Shown here piece by piece: positions 2,588-22,187 of a stretch of DNA of 22,265 nucleotides (position 1 is the stretch's first letter; every line of letters starts with the position of its first letter). Location: positions 1 through 22,265 of IMG/VR virus record IMGVR_UViG_3300034062_004105, one strand, 5' to 3'. The notes beneath the pieces were generated by a model. That model was not told the origin of the DNA and did not search any database. It worked only from the letters and a program-made list of their open reading frames with translations. This DNA comes from a virus. The position numbers and the translations under genes are program-made.

Positions 2588-2807
2588 CTGTTGGCTCCTG
2601 TCGTTCTTGGTACCACTGTCGGCGGAACACCTCGAACGTCATGCCCCCGCCCTCACTCCGGTGAGCGGCGAAAGCGATCACACACTGCTCTAGCTGCGGG
2701 TCGCGGTTGCGTTCCTGCTCTGCTTTGGCAGCCGCTAGGGCTTCCTGCTTGCGGCGGGCTTGGTACTCGCGGTAGGGGAGGAGGTTGTCATCCGTTTGGC
2801 GTGCCAT
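2577..2807 (-). CDS. Small charged helical protein (76 aa), unknown
   Basis: The ATG at 2807 has GAGGAGG about 6 nt upstream and overlaps the end of methyltransferase 2 by 20 nt. Its own stop overlaps the initiator start by 11 nt. The product starts MARQTDDNLLPYREYQAR, continues with an Ala/Glu/Lys-rich helix, and ends with MTFEVFRRQWYQERQE. No family is recognised. Its position immediately ahead of the initiator gene suggests a replication-associated accessory role, but that is inference from context only. An upstream in-frame extension inside the methyltransferase gene was rejected because it lacks a ribosome-binding site and does not look coding. Confidence 0.65.
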   Translation of the reverse strand: MARQTDDNLLPYREYQARRKQEALAAAKAEQERNRDPQLEQCVIAFAAHRSEGGGMTFEVFRRQWYQERQEPTDGR

Positions 2808-3987
2808 CCGTGGCCTCCTCAAGCATTGCGATCCGCTTACCGATCCACGCCATGACCGGAACGGCCATGCTGTTACCGAGAGCCTTGTACCTAGGCCCAT
2901 CACTAGCAGGCTTGCTTCGGTATGTGACGTCCGTGTAGCCATCAGGGAAGCCTTGCAGCCGCTCGCACTCAAGCGGAGTGAGCCTGCGAACTGCGTGCGA
3001 TTCCATCACGGCACCGATCTGGTCAGTGCCGGTGCCACGCTGTAGCGTTTGACTTACATCGCCAGCGGTGTGGTTGTAAGTATCAAAAGCTACGATCGCA
3101 GCAAGCTGGCCGCCGCCATTTGAATGGCTGGCCCTATGGCTCATAGCCCTCATGGTGGGCGCAACATCACTGACAGAGTCGCCTCCATCTTGCTTGCAAG
3201 AAAAAGCGACCGCAGCAATAGAGCACACCTTCATTGGAGGTGTTACATCTGGCGGCGGGATGTTGTCGCAGTAGGAGTCATTCGCATAGAAGGACTGCGG
3301 CCGCGCAAGGATTACATCATCTTGCCCTCTGGATTCTCCGCATCGCTCGACACCCCTGCCGCTGCTTGTAAGGCTTGATGCAGTTGACCGGGCAACTCCT
3401 TCCCACGCTTGCCCGCGCGTCGGAGGATTCCCGCACAGGCTTTCGCGCTCAAATAGTACCGCTGCGGCACATCGCCAATCTCCAAGGTGGCCGACAACGA
3501 ACACACGACGACGACGCTGGGCGACTCCAAACCATTGAGCGTCCAGAACTCTGTACGCGAACCCATACCCGAGTTCTGCCAATGCCCCGAGGAAGGTGCC
3601 AAAGTCCCTTCCTCCTGCTGATGACAAGACTCCAGGGACGTTTTCCCAGACAATCCAACTGGGACGAAGCACGTCAGCAAGCTGTACGAATCGGAGGGCC
3701 AAGTTGCCACGCGGGTCATCCAATCCTTTTCGTAGCCCGGCGACTGAAAAGGATTGGCAAGGTGTTCCTCCGACCAAAAGGTCAACTGGCCCGTACTCAT
3801 TAAGCATCTCCTCCGTGATTGCCGTCATGTCGCCGAGGTTCTTCAGCCTCCAGTGATGGTCAACCACTGCGGCTGGGAATGGCTCAATCTCTGATGTCCA
3901 AGCACATTCCCAGCCGAGTGGCTGCCATGCCACATGAGCCGCACCTATGCCATCGCAGACGCTGGCGTAACGCATGTGGCTGCTCAT
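2788..3987 (-). CDS. C5-cytosine DNA methyltransferase (Dcm-type), copy 2
   Basis: The 399-aa product carries C5-MTase motifs: motif I SVCDGIGAA (residues 9-17), motif IV GGTPCQSFSVAG with catalytic Cys77, motif VI WENVPGV (114-120), motif VIII QRRRRVFVVG (157-166), a long variable target-recognition region (about 170-345), and motifs IX-X RRLTPLECERLQGFP and ALGNSMAVP. The ATG at 3987 comes 1 nt after the stop of the ParB-like gene. A second in-frame ATG lies four codons on. It is clearly divergent from copy 1, with different spacing and target region, so the two probably modify different sites. No restriction partner is seen. A +1-frame ORF with its own strong ribosome-binding site lies inside it (separate entry). 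Confidence 0.93.
   Translation of the reverse strand: MSSHMRYASVCDGIGAAHVAWQPLGWECAWTSEIEPFPAAVVDHHWRLKNLGDMTAITEEMLNEYGPVDLLVGGTPCQSFSVAGLRKGLDDPRGNLALRFVQLADVLRPSWIVWENVPGVLSSAGGRDFGTFLGALAELGYGFAYRVLDAQWFGVAQRRRRVFVVGHLGDWRCAAAVLFERESLCGNPPTRGQAWEGVARSTASSLTSSGRGVERCGESRGQDDVILARPQSFYANDSYCDNIPPPDVTPPMKVCSIAAVAFSCKQDGGDSVSDVAPTMRAMSHRASHSNGGGQLAAIVAFDTYNHTAGDVSQTLQRGTGTDQIGAVMESHAVRRLTPLECERLQGFPDGYTDVTYRSKPASDGPRYKALGNSMAVPVMAWIGKRIAMLEEATDGTPNG
3312..3800 (-). CDS. Possible overlapping gene in +1 frame of methyltransferase 2 (162 aa)
   Basis: This ORF lies entirely within methyltransferase 2, shifted +1. Its ATG at 3800 is preceded by GGAGGAG at a good distance, a strong initiation site buried in the methylase gene. 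The product begins MSTGQLTFWSEEHLANPF, contains EKDWMTRVATW, SGMGSRTEFWTLNGLES, CSLSATLEIGDVPQRYYLS and KACAGILRRAGKRGKELP. From memory, DVP-RYYLS-KAC-GILRRA-KRGK is a recurrent motif set in hypothetical phage proteins. The ORF covers methyltransferase residues about 63-225, including motifs IV-VIII. No function is known. Either it is a real overlapping gene or a conserved shadow of the methylase; codon-level conservation tests would decide. Confidence 0.42.
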   Translation of the reverse strand: MSTGQLTFWSEEHLANPFQSPGYEKDWMTRVATWPSDSYSLLTCFVPVGLSGKTSLESCHQQEEGTLAPSSGHWQNSGMGSRTEFWTLNGLESPSVVVVCSLSATLEIGDVPQRYYLSAKACAGILRRAGKRGKELPGQLHQALQAAAGVSSDAENPEGKMM

Positions 3988-3988
3988 C

Positions 3989-4816
3989 TCAGGCCACCGC
4001 CTCCACCGCGATGTCGACGCGGCTCTCATCCCAATCAAGGGCTTTGGAGCCGAGCCGTTTGTTGTACACCTCAAAGAAAGCACGCGCGACGCCTTCATCT
4101 CGCGTCGTTCCGCTCATCATCTTGAAGGTGTCGCCGTTCCTCATTAATGAGTTGGGCGAATGTCGATCCATCAGCGATTGCAGCCGCTTGCGATCAACAT
4201 TGTCACCAAATCGACGCAAGAAGAATGCGAGACCGCCGATGACTCCGCAGTGATATGCGGACTCAGCGAACTCTTGCCCCCACATCCGCCGCAACATCGT
4301 CAGCACTTCAGTGACGTGAGCCGCGCCAGTCTCGCCGCCGCCCATTCGGCGGTAGGCCGTTTGACACTGCTTCACGCCTCCGATGCTCTGCCGCTTGCCG
4401 TTCGGCTTCATTCCCCGAACATTCAAGCCAGCCGCAGTGATCGCTTCGTACACGATGACCGCATCCGGCTTGCCCGCACACACGTCAGCCTTGAAAAGCT
4501 GATGCGTGCTCAGGCCGCGACGCTTGTTGAGCTTGCCGAATAACTCGGCCTCATGCTCCGGGCCGCGACTCTTGATGATCTGGCACGGCACATGAGTCGC
4601 GCCGCGTTCCATCGCGGCATTGAGCCGCTGGAATCCATCGACCGGGTGAAGGCTCCCGTCATCCCTCTCGCCAGCGACGATGACGCCAAAAGCCTCTTCG
4701 TCAAAGTTCTTGGCGATCCCGGCCACATGTGCCGCGATAGCCTCACGCTGATACTCCTCATCCACAATGAGGTCGCCAACAGCGACCATCCGCACGTCGG
4801 GCTTATGCAAACGCAT
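3989..4816 (-). CDS. ParB/Srx-like domain protein (DUF6551-like), 275 aa
   Basis: The first about 110 residues have the ParB-like nuclease-domain pattern: VAVGDLIVDEEYQRE, then HVAGIAKNFD, and the signature VDGFQRLNAA (residues 59-68), followed by FGKLNKRRGLSTHQLF. In ParB-family proteins this fold binds or hydrolyses nucleotides. Phage versions often sit beside DNA methyltransferases, as here (1-nt gap to methyltransferase 2). The remaining about 165 residues are helical with no motif I recognise. The ATG at 4816 was chosen over 4852 because AAAGGA lies about 7 nt upstream. It is not a chromosome-partition ParB: the HTH centre and a ParA partner are missing. Role unknown, perhaps tied to DNA modification or host takeover. 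Confidence 0.75.
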   Translation of the reverse strand: MRLHKPDVRMVAVGDLIVDEEYQREAIAAHVAGIAKNFDEEAFGVIVAGERDDGSLHPVDGFQRLNAAMERGATHVPCQIIKSRGPEHEAELFGKLNKRRGLSTHQLFKADVCAGKPDAVIVYEAITAAGLNVRGMKPNGKRQSIGGVKQCQTAYRRMGGGETGAAHVTEVLTMLRRMWGQEFAESAYHCGVIGGLAFFLRRFGDNVDRKRLQSLMDRHSPNSLMRNGDTFKMMSGTTRDEGVARAFFEVYNKRLGSKALDWDESRVDIAVEAVA

Positions 4817-9623: not shown

Positions 9624-10562
9624 ATGGAACCGATCACGCTGGCGGAGCTCTTCGAGCGGTATGGAGACCTGCGGAATCTCGACAAAAAAACGATGGTGCT
9701 CTACTCGATGCTGCTCACCCGCCTGCGGGCGTTCCTGGGGCACGAGCCCAGCACTGCCGACCTCGACGATCTGACGATCTCGCGGTATCTCAGGCATCGT
9801 GCCACCAACGTCTACCGAGGGCAGCCGATCCGCCCGGCGAGCGTCCAGAAGGACAAAGTGATGATCGCCGCCGTCTGGAACCTCGCCGCCCGAAAGCGAT
9901 GGGTGAGCGAGTTCCCCGAGCTCCCCCGCATCAAAGTCGCCAAGAGCATCCCGACCGGGCGGGCCTACACCGCCGAAGACGTGGCCGCACTCATCCGCCG
10001 GGCTCGCCGTCGGATCGGCACGACCGGGGGACAGCCCTCGGCGTGGTGGTGGAGCACGCTCATCTACATGGCGTACTGCACGGGCGAGCGGGCGACCGCC
10101 CTAATGTCGCTCCGCTGGGCCGAACTCGACACTGCCCGCCGCCGGGTCATTTTCCTAGGTGCGACCCGCAAGGGATCGACCCGCGACATCGAGCGGGACT
10201 TCACCGCTGACCTCGCCAAGTTCCTCGAAGCCCGCCGCCGCCGGCCCGAGGATCTGGTGTGGCCGTGGGATCGCCACCGTGGGAGCCTCTGGACGAGCCT
10301 CAAACTGCTCTGCCGGCTGGCAGGGGTGCGGTATCGGGGCTTCCACGGTCTGAGGCGTACACGGGCTTCCTACGCCGCCCTGGCGGGCGGTACGGCTGCC
10401 GCCACCCAGGTGCTCGATCACAGCGATCCCAGGCTCCAAGAGCGGTACGTAGACCCTCAGATATGCCCCAGCGAGCAGAGCGGGGTCGAAGTCATGCCGT
10501 CGCTGCGGCTGGACGATCCGCCCGCCGGGCAGGAGGAGCCGCCAGCCGAGCCGGCGGCGTAG
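9624..10562 (+). CDS. int: Tyrosine recombinase (phage integrase), 312 aa
   Basis: The catalytic residues of the tyrosine recombinase family are visible: Arg156 in TGERATALMSLRW, Lys183 in ATRKGST, His241 and Arg244 in FHGLRRTRASY, His266 in LDHSDP and nucleophile Tyr275 in QERYVDP. The N-terminal about 110 residues form the SAM-like core-binding domain. The protein catalyses site-specific recombination between phage attP and host attB. GGGAG lies about 5 nt before the ATG. It is the only large rightward gene, divergent from the excisionase-like gene. The attP site is probably in the flanking non-coding DNA but cannot be recognised without the host junction. The C-terminus has a Pro/Glu-rich tail after residue 290. 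Confidence 0.93.
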   Translation: MEPITLAELFERYGDLRNLDKKTMVLYSMLLTRLRAFLGHEPSTADLDDLTISRYLRHRATNVYRGQPIRPASVQKDKVMIAAVWNLAARKRWVSEFPELPRIKVAKSIPTGRAYTAEDVAALIRRARRRIGTTGGQPSAWWWSTLIYMAYCTGERATALMSLRWAELDTARRRVIFLGATRKGSTRDIERDFTADLAKFLEARRRRPEDLVWPWDRHRGSLWTSLKLLCRLAGVRYRGFHGLRRTRASYAALAGGTAAATQVLDHSDPRLQERYVDPQICPSEQSGVEVMPSLRLDDPPAGQEEPPAEPAA

Positions 10563-13397: not shown

Positions 13398-13718
13398 TCA
13401 ACCGAACACAGCCTTCGCGTATCGCTGGGCGAGCCGCCTCGCGACGCGTTGCACACGAACGCCGGCATCATTCAGCCACTTCTGGCGAGCCTCACACCCG
13501 CACTCGCCCGGCTTGCCGGCAGTTCGCGTCCACCGCTCGACTCGCTCCTTCGTGACGCCGAGCCGAGAGAGCGAACGCTCCACGAAGTCGCCGAGCAAAA
13601 ACGGCCGCCACGGCTGCGGCGGGGGCGGGCGGCACTGCCGAAACGTCGGCCGCGACTTCGCCCGGTAGCCGCACGTCGGGCAAGTCAGCGATTTGCTGAA
13701 GTCGCAGAGCTGCGTCAT
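13398..13718 (-). CDS. Small Cys-rich protein with zinc-ribbon-like start (106 aa)
   Basis: The N-terminus has four cysteines (C5, C13-x2-C16, C29; TCPTCGY) as in a zinc ribbon. After a Pro-rich spacer (PPPPQPWRPF), a second domain has ECGCEARQKWLNDAGVR. A Cys-x-Cys next to a helix is a pattern I associate with small phage structural proteins near tail fibres. The ATG at 13718 overlaps the stop of the 749-aa protein (ATGA). Unknown function; it may be a chaperone or tip component for the upstream adhesin-like protein. Confidence 0.65.
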   Translation of the reverse strand: MTQLCDFSKSLTCPTCGYRAKSRPTFRQCRPPPPQPWRPFLLGDFVERSLSRLGVTKERVERWTRTAGKPGECGCEARQKWLNDAGVRVQRVARRLAQRYAKAVFG

Positions 13719-15964
13719 AGGATGGTCATGCTGTCGCCGAAAGCATTGGCCCAGACGCCCGCAGGCGGGCTGCATAGCGGCCCCGTCACACAGTCTGAGC
13801 AGTCTTGTATCTCAAGGTCTTCTACCCACGCCGTGCACTTCGGAGGGCAATCGATGTCGCAGCCATCCGGCTCTGCCGAGCTATGTGGCGGAAACGGCAC
13901 GAACACGCGGCCCAGACTGTCATGGGCAGAGCACGGAGCGATATAGACGCTCGGCAAGCCAAAGAAAGACCATCGCAGCACTCCAAGCCTCGCCAGTATT
14001 CCGCCTGGAGAATACAACGGCGAGGACGCCAACAGCATCACATAAGTGCCAGACGGCTGCCAAATGCCGCCCTGGGTGTTCACCCACTCAACAGTGATTT
14101 CCTCTGGCACCGGATCGGTGCCGCGACAGCACTGGTTGCACGATCGCTCGCCCGCGTAGCCATCCTCCGAATCGTATTCGCCTCCAGGCGTCACGACGGC
14201 TGTCACTCCATCGGCGTCGGTTGCAGTGAACGACAGATCGTCACAGTCTGTGACATTCGTTGTGGATGTCAGCGTCGTGGCGCACGTCTCGGAAGGCATC
14301 GGAAAGTCGCTGCTAGTCGAAAGCAACTCATTCTCGAACAGAACCAGCGGCGGCAGCGACGGCCCTCGATACTCGACCCGGACGGAGCCTCGCAGCCCGT
14401 ATAGGTTGCCGACGCCACAAAAGCGATGCTCGTAGATACATCGGCTGGCGTCTGGAGCCGTCTCCACCCCGTGCACGGCAGTAGCGACGGTCGCGCGTTT
14501 CAGAACAAAGGAGCGACCGTTGTACGTTGTGCCGCAGCACACCGGGAACTCCGGGTACTGCTGATACCCGCTGCCGCCGTTCGTGATCGAGATGGCTGCT
14601 ATCTGGCCGAATGTCGGGCTGGTCGGATCGTCATCAACCGTCACGTCGAACGTGGCACCCGACCCCTCGCTGGGCCTCCACTGGCTGCCGACCGGAAACT
14701 CTGACGGCGATTCAAACACGGTGATCGCGACCGTAGACACATATGGCGGCTCGCTCGCGTCAACGTGGTAGTAACTGCCAGGAGTCTCAACGGCGACTAT
14801 CAACGCGCCGGCAGAGGTTTCGTAATATGACCCGCGATTCAGCGCGTTGATCGCTACCGAATGCAGTTCGTCGGTTCGCGAGCCGATGTATTCGCCAGCC
14901 GGGCCGGCGACGAGGGGCGAAACATCCGGCGCGACAAATACCGCTGTAATCGCGCCGTTGCCATCGACCGATTCGATGTCCAGAAACGCATTCACATTTG
15001 CGATCCCGTCATCAGCAGACGCGAATGTGAGGTCTATGCCCTCGAACTGCTGATACCCGCTGCCGCCATTGAGCACCGTTACGCTGGCAAGTTCGTACAG
15101 TTTCTTGTTCGGAGCGGGCCACTGATTGGACGGGAGCAGCGTCCACACGGCCTCAAGAGACGCACCCGAGCCGCCGGTAGTGTTGATCGAAAACACCGGG
15201 ATCGGCTCATCGTGAACTACTCTGGCGGTTGCGACCGCAGCGGCAACCTCGACTCCGTTCGCGCCATCGTCAAACGTGATCGCCGCCCCTTCTGTGTAGC
15301 CGCTGCCGCCGTTGGTGACGCTGACGGAATCCACCCCCCAGGTAGCGTTGCCGTTGTAGAGCAGCGACACCGTGGCGGTAGCGTTGCCGCTGATCGTCAG
15401 CGTAGGCTCGGCTCGACCCACATAGAGCCTCGCCGTCGCCGCTTGCTCGACCGTGTCATCCACAGCGGCGGTAATCACGAGATACTCGCCATCGACGTAG
15501 CCGCTCCCGCCTGTGGCCGTCACGGACGCTAGTTGCCAGAAATCCACACCGCAGGCGTTGGGCACGACGTTGAAAGTGGGCGTGAAGGTCGCTCCGCTGC
15601 CCTGGCCGGAAAACGAAAGCGTCGGTGCAGTCCTGCCAAGGATCGCGTATCCCGTGCCCGCGTTGGTGATCGTGACGGCTGATATCGCGCCGCCCGACTC
15701 GGTGAGGGTCGCGGCGGCATTGTTGCCGAAGCACGCGGTGAAAATGGGCGACAGCCGATTCGGCCCCTCCCTGGAATCAGGGAATCCGCTGAGCGTGACC
15801 GTTACCGTGTCGGGCAGCGACCCTTGCGTGCACAGGCTGCACCCGCAGCACGGGCTACACGGTGAGCCGAGCATAAGCCCCATCGGGTACATCGAAACCG
15901 CGAACGCCAGCACCGCCAGAAGCGGCAGCGACGCGGGCTCAACAGCGGCGAGAAACTCGATCAT
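13715..15964 (-). CDS. Large Cys-rich tail/adhesin-like protein with GGSGY repeats (749 aa)
   Basis: The N-terminus has a hydrophobic helix (about residues 10-33, SLPLLAVLAFAVSMYPMG) followed by a dense Cys cluster CSPCCGCSLC and LPDTVTVTLSGF. The body carries at least five (V/I)T(I/V)-NGGSGY units (TITNAGTGY, VTATGGSGY, SVTNGGSGY, TVLNGGSGY, SITNGGSGY), each preceding beta-rich segments of about 40-80 residues, as in repetitive phage fibres. Further Cys pairs (CNQCC, CDIDCPPKC, CSDC) lie near the C-terminus. It follows the tail genes, so it is probably a receptor-binding or decoration structure. The ATG at 15964 overlaps the upstream stop (ATGA). A 22-bp identical DNA repeat within it could promote recombination. 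Confidence 0.72.
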   Translation of the reverse strand: MIEFLAAVEPASLPLLAVLAFAVSMYPMGLMLGSPCSPCCGCSLCTQGSLPDTVTVTLSGFPDSREGPNRLSPIFTACFGNNAAATLTESGGAISAVTITNAGTGYAILGRTAPTLSFSGQGSGATFTPTFNVVPNACGVDFWQLASVTATGGSGYVDGEYLVITAAVDDTVEQAATARLYVGRAEPTLTISGNATATVSLLYNGNATWGVDSVSVTNGGSGYTEGAAITFDDGANGVEVAAAVATARVVHDEPIPVFSINTTGGSGASLEAVWTLLPSNQWPAPNKKLYELASVTVLNGGSGYQQFEGIDLTFASADDGIANVNAFLDIESVDGNGAITAVFVAPDVSPLVAGPAGEYIGSRTDELHSVAINALNRGSYYETSAGALIVAVETPGSYYHVDASEPPYVSTVAITVFESPSEFPVGSQWRPSEGSGATFDVTVDDDPTSPTFGQIAAISITNGGSGYQQYPEFPVCCGTTYNGRSFVLKRATVATAVHGVETAPDASRCIYEHRFCGVGNLYGLRGSVRVEYRGPSLPPLVLFENELLSTSSDFPMPSETCATTLTSTTNVTDCDDLSFTATDADGVTAVVTPGGEYDSEDGYAGERSCNQCCRGTDPVPEEITVEWVNTQGGIWQPSGTYVMLLASSPLYSPGGILARLGVLRWSFFGLPSVYIAPCSAHDSLGRVFVPFPPHSSAEPDGCDIDCPPKCTAWVEDLEIQDCSDCVTGPLCSPPAGVWANAFGDSMTIL
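14557..15067 (-). repeat. Pair of 22-bp direct repeats inside the GGSGY-repeat gene
   Basis: An identical 22-bp sequence occurs at 14557-14578 and 15046-15067; it encodes the GGSGYQQ segment. Related degenerate copies encode the other GGSGY units (for example near 15295 and 15490). Recombination between the 22-mers would delete 489 bp, exactly 163 codons, keeping the frame. Confidence 0.85.
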
Positions 15965-16299
15965 GAGCAGCGGGCAGCGATGAGATACCACGCTGAGCCG
16001 TCCTTCGCGATCGCACACGGCGTTGAGGACGCAGTGCCCGACGTAGTGATCGCAGCAAACAGGTTGTATGCAATCACGGTGTTTGGCGTGGTGGTCACGT
16101 TTCTGAACGTCACTGTCTTCGGCGTGTCAATCGCCCATGCCCCAGTGAACGCACACATGCGAAACACTTTGCCGGCAGGCGGATCGACCTTGCCGAACGT
16201 CAGCGGAGCCCCGTCCCGGTCGCCTTGTTCGACGCGGCGCACGACGGCGGCGATCCGCTCGGCGGCACCGCGAGTGAAATCGACGCGGGCGGTACTCAC
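15961..16299 (-). CDS. Hypothetical tail-region protein (112 aa)
   Basis: It starts with GTG at 16299, sharing one base with the stop of the previous gene, with GGAGGAG just upstream. The product begins MSTARVDFTRGAAERIAAVV, contains RVEQGDRDGAPLTFG, then alternating strand-like segments (FRMCAFTGAWAIDTPKTVTF, NTVIAYNLFAAITTSG). It looks like a small beta-sandwich structural protein. The stop overlaps the start of the 749-aa protein, so the two are translationally coupled. No family is recognised. Confidence 0.65.
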   Translation of the reverse strand: MSTARVDFTRGAAERIAAVVRRVEQGDRDGAPLTFGKVDPPAGKVFRMCAFTGAWAIDTPKTVTFRNVTTTPNTVIAYNLFAAITTSGTASSTPCAIAKDGSAWYLIAARCS

Positions 16300-16675: not shown

Positions 16676-17545
16676 CTAAGACGGCGGCGCGCCGAAGTAT
16701 TGGGACATTGAGATTCTTTTGTAGACGCGGCGAGTGAGGATCGCAGGCAGATTGCCGCCGGTTTGCTTGCCGCCGCTGCCGTTGAGGGCGATCGGATTCG
16801 CGGATGCGACTTGCTCGCCGTCCGGGCCTTGAACGTCGGCTCGCCTCTTTACGCTGCCGTCGATGTAGTTGAAGCCGACATCGGGCAGGAGCAGGCTCCA
16901 CCCGCTCTGACGGCAGAGCAGTTCGCTCGTGATCTTCCAGTAGCGAACCTCTTGCCCGTTCAACTGCTCAACGGCTTGCTCGCCGCTGATGCCCTGCACC
17001 TTCACGCCGTCCGTTGGGAACCCGAGATAGCTGCCGTCGTTCACGCAGTTCGTAACCGCCGCCGCGAGAGCCGAGGGGAAGTTTTGCCGGTTGCTCTGGA
17101 TCGTGACCTTCTGCTGGGCTTCATCGACGGTCAGACCCTCGAAGTAATCGCCGGCTGAGTTTGTGAGCGGCTTCTGCGTTGAGCCGTCGTAGTAGTAGAG
17201 GGCGGGCACCGCGACGCCTTGTGTCTGGAACTTCCACACGTCGGGCCGCAGCCACGGCAAGAGATTCGCACTTTGCTCGTCAGCCTCGGGGATCTTGTAG
17301 CGGGCGATCAGTTCGGAGTGATACCGATTGCCCTCGTATGCTTCGTTGTATTCGAGTTCGTAGCACCGGGCGAAAGACTCTTCGGGGTGCGGCGTAAAAT
17401 GCTCCACGCCGATGGTGCTGACCACCAGGGCAGCCGGCGTGTCGGGGGTGTTGAGCGTCGCGATGAAACGCCGCTCATACTCGGGCGACGCCCCGATCAG
17501 ATGCGTCGCGGTACGCGGCAGTTCGTTCCAAGAGTGAACGCTCAT
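16676..17545 (-). CDS. Hypothetical tail protein (289 aa)
   Basis: The ATG at 17545 overlaps the tape-measure stop (TGATG). The product starts MSVHSWNELPRTATHLIGAS, has a region rich in aromatic residues (CYELEYNEAYEGNRYHSELI), a central segment NSAGDYFEGLTVDEAQQKVT, and a C-terminal LLPDVGFNYIDGSVKRRADV, ending SMSQYFGAPPS. In tailed phages the gene after the tape measure usually encodes the distal tail or a baseplate-hub protein, so that is the best guess. I see no recognisable motif, so the function is inferred from position only. Confidence 0.72.
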   Translation of the reverse strand: MSVHSWNELPRTATHLIGASPEYERRFIATLNTPDTPAALVVSTIGVEHFTPHPEESFARCYELEYNEAYEGNRYHSELIARYKIPEADEQSANLLPWLRPDVWKFQTQGVAVPALYYYDGSTQKPLTNSAGDYFEGLTVDEAQQKVTIQSNRQNFPSALAAAVTNCVNDGSYLGFPTDGVKVQGISGEQAVEQLNGQEVRYWKITSELLCRQSGWSLLLPDVGFNYIDGSVKRRADVQGPDGEQVASANPIALNGSGGKQTGGNLPAILTRRVYKRISMSQYFGAPPS

Positions 17546-20271
17546 CAGCCCGTCCCCGCGAGGATGTCAACCTTCTCGGCGTTCAGCTTGGCGAGCTCTC
17601 GCCGCATCTTCTCCAGCTCGGCGGTCTGCTTCTTCGCCTCCGCAATCGCCGGGTCTTCCTTGAGCGTGTCGAAAAACGCTGAGATGCCGCCCGAGCGGAT
17701 GTCGTTAATCTCGACGGAGCCGGTGCGAACGGTGGCAAGTTCTTCGGCGCGGGCGAGTTCGATCTCGAACTGGCGATCCAGAAGCTGTGATCGAGCGGCC
17801 TCGACTTTCTGAGTGATTTGCTCCTCTGCTCGCCGCCGCTGCTCCGCTGCCTTCTCCGCTTCACGGGCTACTCTTTCTGCTTCGCGTTCAGCCTCTCGGC
17901 GAGCTTGCTCAGCGGCTCGCTCGGCTTGTGCCGCTGCTTGCTCGGCTTGTCGTTGGGCTTGCTGGGATGCCCTTTCTGCTTCACGTTCCGCCTGCTCTGC
18001 GGCCTGCTGTGCGGCCCTCTCTGCCTCTTCTCGTTGCCTCTTCGCACCGCTTGCGATGTCATCTTCCCGAGCAGCGACTTGATCGAGGATTGCCAGCCGC
18101 GACGCGAGTGCATCGATCGCGGCTTGGTCTCCCGTCTCGCGAGCCGCCCGTAGCTGCTCTTCGACGCGAGCGATTTCCCCCTGCACCGCCAGCAAGTTTT
18201 CCGCCGCCCTGAAACGAGCCGAGTCGCCGCCGAACTCATTGTCGATGCGGGCCTGCTCCAAGCTGGCATCAACGATTTTCTGGACTTCAGCGGACTGCTT
18301 CTCTGCCGCTTGGGCTGCTCGCTCTTGTTGGGCGACCAGATCGGCAGTGCTGGCTGAAGCCTTGTCGATGCCGTCAGACACCTTGCTGGCTGATTCGCCC
18401 GCACTTTCGGCTGACCGCTCGATGCCTAGAAAGTTCTCGGCAATCGTAAGGAGGCGACCGACAACGCCGCCGATAGCGTTCGCGATAGTCGAGAAGACCG
18501 ACGCTACTGCGCCAAATGTCGAACTGATGATGTCGCCCAGCGTCTGAAGAAACGGCGACTGTGCGACAAGTTCAGAGAATCGCGAGACAAGCCCGCCGAC
18601 GAACTCGCCGGCTCTCTGGAATGCTGTCGTGATGATCGTCACAACGCGGGAGATCGTTTCGCCTAGGGCTCCGACGTTTGCAGCGATAGCCCCGATGGGA
18701 GTGAAGGACACGACCCATTCAGTCACCGATACGGCTGCATTGCTAATGCCTTGCAGGAAGTTGAATATGCCCTCGTATAAGGGCTCCAGTGCTTGCGAAA
18801 CTTCTTGCACGATCACGGCGAACGGCTCGAACACGGCACCAATCGTGCGGCCAAGGTTGCCGATCCCGACGCCGATCAGTTCAACGACGCGACCGATCTG
18901 CGTTAGCAGCGGCTCAAGGATGCGACCGATCGGATCAACGATCGCCGTGATGCCCGCCGTGACTTCGGCCAGCCCGCGAGCGATGCCGTCACCTAGCCCA
19001 ACGAACGGGAGCAGCAACGAGGTGCCGAGCCCTTCGGTCGAAAGTTTTAGAGCGTCAATGCTGCCGCCAAACTCGGAGAGCCGTTCGCGATCCAGATCGG
19101 ACACGGCACGGCCGAACCGCTCCATGTCTGCCGCAGCAAGCCCGAGTTCATTGAAGAACGGCAACAACTGAACGCCGCTGCGTCCGAACAAGGCGATCGC
19201 CGCAGCCGACCGCTGAGCAGGGTCTTCGATTGCAGCCAGCCGCTCGCCGATCAAGTCAATCCGCTGCTGCTCCGAGAGTGCCCCGAAGTCCTGCACCGAG
19301 ACGCCGAGCCGCTGCAACGCCGAACTCGCCTTCTTGCTCTCTTCGTCTGCCCCTGCAAGCGTGTTCTGAAGCCGAGCGAACGAGCCGCTCAACTGCTCAA
19401 TCGAAACGTCTGCCCTGCGGCCCGCTTCCTCCAGCACTTGCACGAACTCAAACGACACGCCCAACTGCGTCGCCAAGCGACTGAGACGCTCTACGCGATC
19501 CTCCAGGGCCACGAGTCCACGCACCACCGCTGTCGCACCGGCCGCGAATGCCGTGATGCCCGCGAGGGCGAGTGTGAACGGGTTGATGAGGGCCGTGACT
19601 GAAGACACAAGCCCCTGGAAGCCCGCCGTCAATCCGCCTGCGAAGATCCGCGACAGCCCTTCGCTCGCACTCGCGATGCCCGAGATCCGCCCCGCGATGT
19701 TGCCCAGCGGGCCGGGCAGCACTGAGAACACCCCAGAGAGCTCGTTGAACTGGAGCGTCGTGCCAGAAGCCGCCGCGTCGATCGCATCGGTCTGCACAGC
19801 CAGCCCGCGAGCCGCACGCTCGGCATCAGTGAGCCCCTTGGCGGCGGATTCGGTCGCCCGGTTGTAGGTCTCCAGCGAGATCCGCCCGGCGTTCAGTTGC
19901 TCAGTCAGTTCCGCCTGAGCACGGTCGAACCGCTCCAGCGTTGTGAGATTGGCTTCGGTGATTTGCTGCGCTCGCTGGAACGCGGCAGCCTCTTTGTTCG
20001 CGGCTTCGGTTAGCCGCTCGAAGGCAGCGGCGAACTGCGTCGCAGCCCCAGGCCCGCCGTCGCGAAGGGTGTTGATAAGATCCTGCGACTGCTGCTCAAA
20101 GCGGGCCTGAGCCGCCGCCGCCGCTTCGCTCCCGCCGGAAAACTTGGCGAACTGACTCGTCAACTTCTCGGCTTGATCGCCCAGCCCCACAAGCGCACGC
20201 TGCACTGGATCGAGCCGCAGCCCGCTGGCGTCAGCCGTGACCCGCAACGCTAATGAGAGGACGTTAGCCAT
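17545..20271 (-). CDS. Tail tape measure protein (908 aa)
   Basis: Length, position (after the chaperone pair) and composition all fit a tape measure: long helical N-terminus, a Gly/Ala-rich hydrophobic core (about residues 220-270, FTLALAGITAFAAGATAVV), further hydrophobic stretches (about 470-640, PIGAIAANVGALGETISRVV), and a coiled coil almost pure in Glu, Ala, Gln and Arg (about 735-835, ERASQQAQRQAEQAAAQAER). Established tail-length scaling (about 0.15 nm per residue) would give a tail of roughly 136 nm, an inference. The start overlaps the stop of the T-like ORF by 8 nt. No lysin domain is apparent. It sets tail length and occupies the tail tube lumen before DNA ejection. Confidence 0.9.
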   Translation of the reverse strand: MANVLSLALRVTADASGLRLDPVQRALVGLGDQAEKLTSQFAKFSGGSEAAAAAQARFEQQSQDLINTLRDGGPGAATQFAAAFERLTEAANKEAAAFQRAQQITEANLTTLERFDRAQAELTEQLNAGRISLETYNRATESAAKGLTDAERAARGLAVQTDAIDAAASGTTLQFNELSGVFSVLPGPLGNIAGRISGIASASEGLSRIFAGGLTAGFQGLVSSVTALINPFTLALAGITAFAAGATAVVRGLVALEDRVERLSRLATQLGVSFEFVQVLEEAGRRADVSIEQLSGSFARLQNTLAGADEESKKASSALQRLGVSVQDFGALSEQQRIDLIGERLAAIEDPAQRSAAAIALFGRSGVQLLPFFNELGLAAADMERFGRAVSDLDRERLSEFGGSIDALKLSTEGLGTSLLLPFVGLGDGIARGLAEVTAGITAIVDPIGRILEPLLTQIGRVVELIGVGIGNLGRTIGAVFEPFAVIVQEVSQALEPLYEGIFNFLQGISNAAVSVTEWVVSFTPIGAIAANVGALGETISRVVTIITTAFQRAGEFVGGLVSRFSELVAQSPFLQTLGDIISSTFGAVASVFSTIANAIGGVVGRLLTIAENFLGIERSAESAGESASKVSDGIDKASASTADLVAQQERAAQAAEKQSAEVQKIVDASLEQARIDNEFGGDSARFRAAENLLAVQGEIARVEEQLRAARETGDQAAIDALASRLAILDQVAAREDDIASGAKRQREEAERAAQQAAEQAEREAERASQQAQRQAEQAAAQAERAAEQARREAEREAERVAREAEKAAEQRRRAEEQITQKVEAARSQLLDRQFEIELARAEELATVRTGSVEINDIRSGGISAFFDTLKEDPAIAEAKKQTAELEKMRRELAKLNAEKVDILAGTG

Positions 20272-20596
20272 CTTCGAGATCGCCTAGACCAAACTGCCGC
20301 CGCAACTCCAACAACGCCGCCATGTCCTGCGACTCGTGCTGCGGCGGCTTCTCTATCGGAATGAAATCCTCGGGCTTCGGTCGTTTCTGATTCTTTCCGA
20401 TGTGCGGAGCCAGGAGAGCCGTGACGATCAGTGCCGTCTCCCGCCACGAATCCGGCAACGCCGAGAAGTAGCGGTTGTAGGCGATCCATTCAGAGAGCTC
20501 GGCCGAATCCATTCGCGTGCTCAACTCGCTGACCGTCATGCCGAGATCGCGAGCGACCGCGAACATATAACGGCGAGTCGGGCTCGCGTTCAGCCT
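20264..20596 (-). CDS. Tail assembly chaperone T-like extension, translated by -1 frameshift
   Basis: In the -1 frame relative to the upstream chaperone gene, translation is open from the slippery heptamer (last base at 20596) through a 10-codon bridge (RLNASPTRRY) to MFAVARDLGMTVSELS, and ends at 20264. The extension (about 110 residues) continues SAELSEWIAYNRYFSALPD. That resembles the lambda T-type half of G-T chaperones, and small phage proteins beginning AR-LG-TVSEL. The fused product would be 223 aa (113 + 110). The ATG at 20566 has no good Shine-Dalgarno sequence, which supports frameshifting over separate initiation. Its end overlaps the tape-measure start by 8 nt. Confidence 0.8.
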   Translation of the reverse strand, partial: RLNASPTRRYMFAVARDLGMTVSELSTRMDSAELSEWIAYNRYFSALPDSWRETALIVTALLAPHIGKNQKRPKPEDFIPIEKPPQHESQDMAALLELRRQFGLGDLEDG

Positions 20597-20602
20597 TTTC
20601 CC
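20573..20602 (-). promoter_or_regulatory. Programmed -1 ribosomal frameshift site: slippery heptamer plus stimulatory hairpin
   Basis: On the transcribed strand GGGAAAA (20602-20596) is in the required phase, G GGA AAA with the zero frame GGA|AAA. It ends 3 nt before the stop of the first ORF. After an 8-nt spacer a hairpin GCGAG (20587-20583), loop CCCGA, CTCGC (20577-20573) follows. This is the X XXY YYZ rule, close to lambda's GGGAAAG in the G-T pair. Shifting joins the two ORFs. Confidence 0.82.
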
Positions 20603-20934
20603 AGTTCTTGCACATCCTCCTCTGTCATGCGGTTGTGCTTCATCGCCTCATCGAACAGCCGGCCCATCACCGCACCGCTCTTGCTCGCGAGCTTGTCGAT
20701 CTGGTCGCGGGTGAACAAGAGCTTTCCGGTCTCGTCGCACAACACGCCCGCGAGGTACTGCGTGCGGAAGTTCTCGATGCCGGTTTCCTTCTTGCCGATC
20801 CACCGCCGCTCATACGAGTCACGCTCGCCCACGCTCATCACGCGGATGAACACGTCGCCGCCCCACTCGGGCACAGGAACCCGCTTCAGCCCCATGTCAT
20901 CCGCCGCGAGAATCTGCTCTGCCGTCAGTGCCAT
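20590..20934 (-). CDS. Tail assembly chaperone (G-like), 114 aa
   Basis: The product starts MALTAEQILAADDMGLKRV and contains VFIRVMSVGERDSYERRW, ENFRTQYLAGVLCDETG and KLLFTRDQIDKLASKSG, ending MTEEDVQELGKG. This acidic, helical pattern is that of tail assembly chaperones encoded immediately before the tape measure. The chaperone coats the tape measure during tail assembly. AGGAG precedes the ATG. The stop lies within the frameshift cassette, where a fraction of ribosomes would continue into the T-like frame. A tail tube-like gene upstream and the tape measure downstream give the usual order. Confidence 0.85.
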   Translation of the reverse strand: MALTAEQILAADDMGLKRVPVPEWGGDVFIRVMSVGERDSYERRWIGKKETGIENFRTQYLAGVLCDETGKLLFTRDQIDKLASKSGAVMGRLFDEAMKHNRMTEEDVQELGKG

Positions 20935-20947
20935 CTGTCACGATCTC

Positions 20948-21310
20948 CTATGGATTAGTCGGAGCTCCGACCGTATCCATTACCCTAAACGTGTACGCAA
21001 ACCTCACGACCTCATTCGCGACTGCTTCGATGCGTGCGTCTTCGTAGATGCAGTCGCGATCAAAGAACGTCACGAGCGTTCCAGCCGACGCGGTGCGACC
21101 CGCGAACGTCAGCCGCTTTCGCCGGCCGTACTCGCTCTCGGGCAGGTGAGCCGTGGAGAACGCGGCGATCCGCAGCGTGCCCAGGCTCGGCGTCCATGTG
21201 GTCGTGCGACCGAGCGGCAGCCCGCGAGCGGCATCCAAGTCAAACGCCTGCACCTCTTGGAGCGACTGACCGCCCCAAGTAATCGTGAACCCTTGGCAGG
21301 GAATCGCCAT
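20948..21310 (-). CDS. Probable tail protein (120 aa)
   Basis: The product begins MAIPCQGFTITWGGQSLQEV and has a beta-rich core (GRTTTWTPSLGTLRIAAF, SEYGRRKRLTFAGRTASAG). It ends with VRFAYTFRVMDTVGAPTNP. The strand pattern and position between the tail tube-like gene and the tail chaperone suggest a small tail tube or tail-terminator-type component. GGAGGG lies about 6 nt upstream of the ATG. I know of no definite family; the assignment rests on gene order and composition. Confidence 0.65.
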   Translation of the reverse strand: MAIPCQGFTITWGGQSLQEVQAFDLDAARGLPLGRTTTWTPSLGTLRIAAFSTAHLPESEYGRRKRLTFAGRTASAGTLVTFFDRDCIYEDARIEAVANEVVRFAYTFRVMDTVGAPTNP

Positions 21311-21328: not shown

Positions 21329-21763
21329 TCAGGTCAGCGAGCTAGTGCGAACCAGCGTCAGTACCGCCTGCCCTCGCACCGCGTCATTGGTCGCGAGCGT
21401 CAGCGTCGAACTAGCCACCGTCGCATAGAACGCCGTGCCAGCGGCAGCAGTCGATCCGATCAGAGCGGTGCCGCCGATCGCGATGTAGACCGTCGCGGTC
21501 GAGCCGTCGAGGAAGATCGTCTTGCCCAGGTAGTCGAACGTGATCTGCCGGCCCGACCCGCCGTCCTCGGCAGGGATCACGAGCGGACGATCAAGCGTCG
21601 CAGCGAGTTCGCCCGCAGACTGTGCCAAGTGCGCCACATCAATCCGTGCATCTGCACCGGCGGCAGGATTGGTGTTGCTGATGACGATGTTCGTCGCCGT
21701 GTAGTTGTTGGCACCGAAGCGAAGGATTGTGCCGGAACCATCGTGCGGGGTCGAGAATGACAC
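21329..21763 (-). CDS. Probable major tail tube protein (144 aa)
   Basis: It starts with GTG at 21763, 4 nt after the upstream stop, with AGGAGA upstream. The sequence has alternating strands (GTILRFGANNYTATNIVISN, RIDVAHLAQSAGELAAT, RQITFDYLGKTIFLDG, TVYIAIGGTALIGSTAA), a beta-sandwich fold typical of tail tube proteins. The 'DVAHLAQ...R' segment is reminiscent of many small phage tail tubes. Position directly after the tail-completion gene fits the canonical head-to-tail order. It would polymerise into the tail tube around the tape measure. The assignment as major tube rather than minor tail protein is inference. Confidence 0.68.
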   Translation of the reverse strand: MSFSTPHDGSGTILRFGANNYTATNIVISNTNPAAGADARIDVAHLAQSAGELAATLDRPLVIPAEDGGSGRQITFDYLGKTIFLDGSTATVYIAIGGTALIGSTAAAGTAFYATVASSTLTLATNDAVRGQAVLTLVRTSSLT

Positions 21764-21767
21764 GGTT

Positions 21768-22187
21768 CTAGATCTCCTGCCAGAGAATGGTGTAGGTCTG
21801 CGTCACGCTGTAGACGGCGGGCAACTCGCCGCCGGCCAACTGCACGAACCCGTCGCTCTCACTGAGCAGCGACACGTTCCTGACTGAAATCCAGTTTCCC
21901 AACGCCCCGTTGAAACCATCCAGTGTTTGGCGGCAGCGGTCAGCGAGTTCCCTTACTCCCTCATACGTGGTCGCGTACATATCCACGGCCAGCGTCACGG
22001 TCGCGATCCCAGACGGGCCGGCGAGGGTGGCTTCCCGCTGCACCGCCTGCCGCCGCCAAGTGACGAACGGGATCGCCGCCGAGGCGGGGGCGATGACGGG
22101 GTACACCCGGTCGCCCACGATCTCCGCGACGGCGGGGGCGGCGACCAGGGCATCGCCGATGAGGCGTTCGGGGGATTTGACGCTCAT
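21768..22187 (-). CDS. Tail completion protein (DUF3168-like), 139 aa
   Basis: The product begins MSVKSPERLIGDALVAAPA and contains DRVYPVIAPASAAIPFVTWR, then VTLAVDMYATTYEGVRELAD, and ends LPAVYSVTQTYTILWQEI. This matches the DUF3168/tail-completion pattern: residues P-YP-IAP--A-IPFV--R, then D-YA--Y--V--LA, then Y-----Y-I. The family joins the head-tail interface to the tail tube in siphoviruses. The ATG at 22187 overlaps the stop of an upstream gene cut by the window edge (ATGA), so the gene is in the middle of the late operon. Confidence 0.75.
   Translation of the reverse strand: MSVKSPERLIGDALVAAPAVAEIVGDRVYPVIAPASAAIPFVTWRRQAVQREATLAGPSGIATVTLAVDMYATTYEGVRELADRCRQTLDGFNGALGNWISVRNVSLLSESDGFVQLAGGELPAVYSVTQTYTILWQEI

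Follow-up and report, generated by a model that had tools for sequence, protein, structure and literature searches.

Probable programmed −1 frameshifting in the lambda G/GT-type tail assembly chaperone gene of an environmental tailed phage

Tail genes and the G and T reading frames

The DNA analyzed here (the window) is a virus record of 22,265 bases, IMG/VR IMGVR_UViG_3300034062_004105, with a G+C content of 63%. Its tail module lies on the minus strand at the right end of the window, in the order tail terminator, two genes without a family, G, T, and tape measure. A tail terminator or completion protein is encoded at 21768–22187 (PF11367 Tail_completion_gp17, E = 3.8e-12; PHROG 347, tail terminator), and the tape measure protein, with 908 amino acids, at 17545–20271 (PHROG 8462, tail length tape measure, E = 2.8e-22, along with many other matches). 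G and T are thus flanked by the terminator on one side and the tape measure on the other, all on the same strand, which is the position expected of a G/GT-type chaperone. The two genes between terminator and G (20948–21310 and 21329–21763, both minus strand) have no Pfam or PHROG match; judged by place, one of them may encode the tail tube protein. On the far side of the tape measure, a minus-strand gene at 13715–16018 encodes a protein of 767 aa in which G-S-G-Y motifs recur (ITNAGTGY, VTNGGSGY, VLNGGSGYQ, and others) and which weakly resembles PHROG 460 (head closure); it is possibly a tail or fiber protein.

The zero-frame ORF of G (20590–20934, minus strand) encodes 114 amino acids and belongs to the tail assembly chaperone family PHROG 344 (E = 2.6e-27), while its matches to PF06222 and PF16459 are weak and fall below the cut-off. 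The T-like extension in the −1 frame (20264–20596, minus strand) has 110 amino acids plus a stop and begins RLNASPTRRY-MFAVARDLGMTV. It matches PF06223, “Minor tail protein T,” with 28.5 bits against a cut-off of 25.9, as well as PHROG 337, tail protein, and PF06223 was also matched in all 13 relatives that were scanned. There is an 8-nt overlap between the start of the tape measure gene and the T stop. Taken as one unit, G and GT span 20264–20934 on the minus strand. Stepping back one base after the AAA codon at the end of G yields RLNASPTRRYMFAVARDLGMTV..., and the resulting fusion consists of 113 G residues, RLNASPTRRY, and 100 further amino acids. The first-pass annotation had proposed a short form of 114 aa and a fusion of 223 aa, and both lengths were reproduced by our conceptual fusion.

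The slip site and its conservation among relatives

At the end of G the zero frame reads CTG GGA AAA GGC TGA. The slippery heptamer G_GGA_AAA (GGGAAAA) is read at 20596–20602 (minus strand), and the TGA that ends the short form (20590–20592, minus strand) follows 3 nt (GGC) later. The first-pass annotation had already placed the heptamer in the correct phase 3 nt before the stop, which is exact to the base; its 8-nt spacer ahead of a hairpin corresponds to 20595–20588, and the downstream ORF it described is indeed open in the −1 frame, past the G stop and as far as the T stop at 20264–20266. As a bare string, GGGAAAA is weak evidence, because the 22-kb window contains it three times when both strands are counted. 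The phase of the heptamer, its place beside the stop, and its conservation among relatives, taken together, do not fit chance.

A scan of IMG/VR returned 293 relatives, 80 of which were kept, and an alignment-based scan extended the set further; the group is abundant, with more than 580 IMG/VR matches. Among the closest 80 relatives (76–100% identity), 79 carry GGGAAAA and one carries GGGAAAG, in every case exactly 3 nt before the stop and with T in the −1 frame. The 99 distinct junctions comprise 79 with GGGAAAA, one with GGGAAAG, 14 with AAAAAAC (A_AAA_AAC), and five with G_GGG_AAA. The AAAAAAC heptamers abut the stop, and the gap between heptamer and zero-frame stop is either 0 or 3 nt among relatives.

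Conservation of the heptamer among relatives had been suggested as a check on the first-pass reading, and a recognized heptamer of the form X_XXY_YYZ is present in 94 of the 99 distinct junctions, compared to a mean of 4.4 and a maximum of 12 in 2000 synonymous-codon shuffles, counts that overstate the significance because the relatives are not independent. Codon choice follows the same pattern: the slip-site glycine is GGA in 80 of 85 cases (6% GGA elsewhere in the gene), and the slip-site lysine is AAA in 98 of 99 (14% elsewhere). Many remoter homologues in cellular genomes also have A_AAA_AAC, A_AAA_AAG, or G_GGA_AAC near the stop; all of these cellular-genome homologues are at most 48% identical, too distant to point to a host, and the best across the full query comes from a Planctomycetaceae MAG (46%). 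This comparison among relatives strongly supports a −1 frameshift that would be in working order, and the signal is real and looks functional.

The same set of junctions bears on whether the frames could be joined by transcriptional slippage, or only appear to be split through a sequencing or assembly error, rather than being joined by ribosomal slippage. The slip site does contain a short run of A. However, the run is four bases long (six in the A_AAA_AAC relatives), below the nine described for bacterial transcript slippage (PMC5009743), and a sequencing error is ruled out by the recurrence of the arrangement in 99 distinct junctions. We regard this explanation as scarcely credible.

One clade departs from the recognized heptamers. 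Its five junctions (e.g., L158, L167) read CTG GGG AAA ACC TGA through a synonymous change of GGA to GGG, and T remains in the −1 frame. At G_GGG_AAA, ideal re-pairing in the A site would not be allowed, and the lysine tRNA would presumably re-pair to GAA via a G:U contact; the case of GGGGGAA in actinophages has been argued along comparable lines (PMC10885494). The first-pass annotation had held that loss of the heptamer in relatives keeping both ORFs would count against its reading, and to the letter such a loss is found in this clade (5 of 99). The G/GT reading nevertheless stands, because the exception is one derived clade with a single synonymous change and a degraded site, and because other clades substitute another recognized heptamer. 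Junctions with G_GGG_AAA_A in which both ORFs are retained (L158, L165, L167–L170, and L193) may represent a non-standard slip site.

T might instead be an independent protein, started at an ATG in the −1 frame (20564–20566, minus strand) that is coupled to the G stop lying 23 nt before it, in which case the heptamer would be incidental. The window has this ATG, as do 61 of 99 relatives, and the G stop is close enough for re-initiation. Yet the codon at this position is not ATG in the other 38: it is TTG in one, CTG in five, and ATC in 14, and in 18 of the 99 there is no table-11 start. An SD-like 4-mer precedes the position in only 7 of 99 relatives, vs. 84 of 96 for the G start. Given the missing ATG and the rarity of SD-like sequences, a separate start is unlikely as the main route to T. 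It would also leave the conserved GGA AAA unexplained, as well as the conserved peptide RLN(A/V)SPTRR(Y/F), which the −1 frame, conserved from the heptamer onward, encodes family-wide in the stretch that separates the G stop from the ATG. Production of T from its own start only is therefore a poor explanation, and we consider it very improbable; some re-initiation may co-exist with frameshifting.

Downstream structure and other candidate stimulators

The hairpin singled out in the first-pass annotation, GCGAG-CCCGA-CTCGC (20573–20587, minus strand; arms at 20587–20583 and 20577–20573), exists in the window, where it lies 8 nt past the heptamer and has a local folding energy of about −8 kcal/mol. 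These features would suit a stimulator of an otherwise genuine frameshift. Its five pairs are intact in only 6 of the 99 relatives, however, and its 5′ arm also pairs further downstream, within a longer stem-loop found repeatedly across the family. In the minimum free energy fold of the window this longer structure occupies 20548–20588 (minus strand), with an outer 7-bp stem formed by CGCGAGC (20588–20582) and GCTCGCG (20554–20548) and a smaller stem within. Among window-like relatives, the seven CGCGAGC/GCTCGCG pairs form in 92.6% of cells, compared to 12–58% when the register is slid, and long stems similar to that of the window clade occur in other clades too. The short hairpin is thus present as described but is probably not the stimulator, and we consider that role for it improbable.

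Several results point to structure of the longer kind across the family. A different clade has an 18-pair stem with 77.6% pairing, vs. 42–51% when slid. In most clades, individual folds have long stems that begin 7–8 nt past the heptamer. From the stop onward, a segment of 45 nt has a mean z of −2.08 relative to synonymous shuffles, whereas windows further along range from −0.6 to +0.9. By folding energy, the 48-nt stretch at this place has a median rank of 1.2% among local windows, with 69 of 99 relatives in the top 5%. Conserved RNA structure 5–9 nt past the heptamer is accordingly seen as a family-wide excess of folding together with clade-specific stems. RNAalifold gave no consensus structure for the ungapped family alignment, because the register differs from clade to clade (i+j = 70, 71, or 77); for this reason structure was tested clade by clade and by per-sequence folding. 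Compensatory changes are few in the junction stems, with little covariation, and none were found in the stem of the window clade. In the window itself, downstream folding is no more than moderate, at rank 11% among local windows and with a z of about −0.9. With so few compensatory changes and only a moderate fold in the window, the downstream stem-loop is a likely rather than a proven stimulator.

Upstream of the slip site, an internal Shine-Dalgarno-like AGGAGG (20616–20621, minus strand) lies 13 nt before the heptamer and may also stimulate slippage. Upstream SD matches of at least 5 nt were found in 93 of 100 sequences (synonymous null: mean 73, maximum 84), and matches of at least 6 nt in 53 of 100 (null mean 35, maximum 45), a moderate excess among relatives that are not independent. 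If AGGAGG and the stem-loop are both active, the arrangement would resemble the cassette of E. coli dnaX, with an upstream SD, a heptamer, and a downstream stem-loop; it differs in the gene and the heptamer, and in an upstream SD that is only moderately above coding expectation. Tentatively, the family could carry a full dnaX-like cassette, in which an internal SD and heptamer are combined with a stem rebuilt in each clade, and joint changes in stem and slip site tune the G:GT ratio. The G_GGG_AAA clade, whose downstream stems are unusually strong (about −30 to −33 kcal/mol), could then be viewed as pairing a weakened slip site with an especially strong stem, although we find this extended reading doubtful.

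Comparison with known systems and proposed expression

Our conclusion is that this tailed phage very probably makes its lambda G/GT-type tail assembly chaperones by programmed −1 ribosomal frameshifting. The majority of ribosomes would end at the TGA at 20592–20590 and release the 114-aa short chaperone, while a minority would slip one base back on G_GGA_AAA and continue in the −1 frame, adding the T domain to give the 223-aa fusion. The frequency of slipping would be set by the stem-loop located about 7–8 nt downstream, perhaps with a contribution from AGGAGG 13 nt upstream. If lambda is a guide, both forms would coat the tape measure protein, and recruitment of the tail tube protein would fall to the T domain. 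What the sequences show is the anatomy of the locus, a conserved slip site, coding in the −1 frame, and a downstream structure that recurs; that slipping occurs, its rate, and the chaperone roles of both forms are what we infer.

In lambda, low-level −1 frameshifting joins G and T, and tail assembly depends critically on their molar ratio of 30:1 (PMC5009743). The likeness to lambda G/GT proposed in the first-pass annotation is supported by the protein families, the gene order, the slip-site codons, and joined CDSs annotated for homologues. Both systems have the gene directly before the tape measure, a G_GGA_AA(A/G) slip site near the end of G, a T extension in the −1 frame, and a T domain of the PF06223 family. 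They differ in that the lambda slip site is G_GGA_AAG, with 15 nt separating it from the G stop, whereas here G_GGA_AAA is 3 nt before the stop, and in the length of the T extension (144 aa in lambda vs. 110 aa). Comparison of G with lambda gpG by hhalign gave a probability of 0.2%, i.e., no detectable similarity, and the gene is therefore assigned to the G/GT type by role, architecture, and T domain, and not as a sequence homologue of gpG. Direct hhalign of T with lambda T aligned 85 columns (P = 0.005) with a probability of only 7%, and BLASTP of the 223-aa fusion against lambda GT gave no significant match; it is Pfam that supports the family link.

Closer counterparts are found among actinophages, in which joined chaperone CDSs have been annotated in more than two thousand genomes (PMC10885494). 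Jflix2, Dubu, and phiSASD1 have homologues annotated as frameshift-joined CDSs. The Streptomyces phages Dubu and phiSASD1 share a homologous G (36–38% identity), a T in the −1 frame, and the tape measure as the next gene, but their G_GGA_AAC has C as the Z base and abuts the stop, rather than lying 3 nt before it as here. The Rhodococcus phages Jflix2, REQ1, Madraxi, and Shagrat likewise have a homologous G (40–46% identity) and a T-like ORF in the −1 frame, but are without the G_GGA_AAR heptamer: Jflix2 has an in-phase G_GGT_TTC 33 nt before the stop, and the other three have no heptamer of the standard form. Rhodococcus and Thermobifida phages in our set (L083, L086, L088, L089) combine a homologous G and a −1-frame T with no standard in-phase heptamer near the stop.

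Since G/GT-type frameshifting is known from lambda and actinophages and is annotated in homologues, the locus adds a member to a known class, here in a little-described family of environmental viruses. For this abundant group of environmental phages, it provides the correct annotation of a gene pair that automatic callers would give as two ORFs. The many close junctions, with swapped heptamers and rebuilt stems, also form a natural series in which slip site and structure may jointly set the frameshift rate.

Elsewhere in the window, two C-5 cytosine DNA methylases (PF00145) are encoded in this one phage genome, at 359–1381 and 2788–4098, both on the minus strand. An integrase (PF00589, PHROG 1) is encoded at 9624–10562 on the plus strand, opposite to the tail genes, and on this basis the virus is probably temperate.
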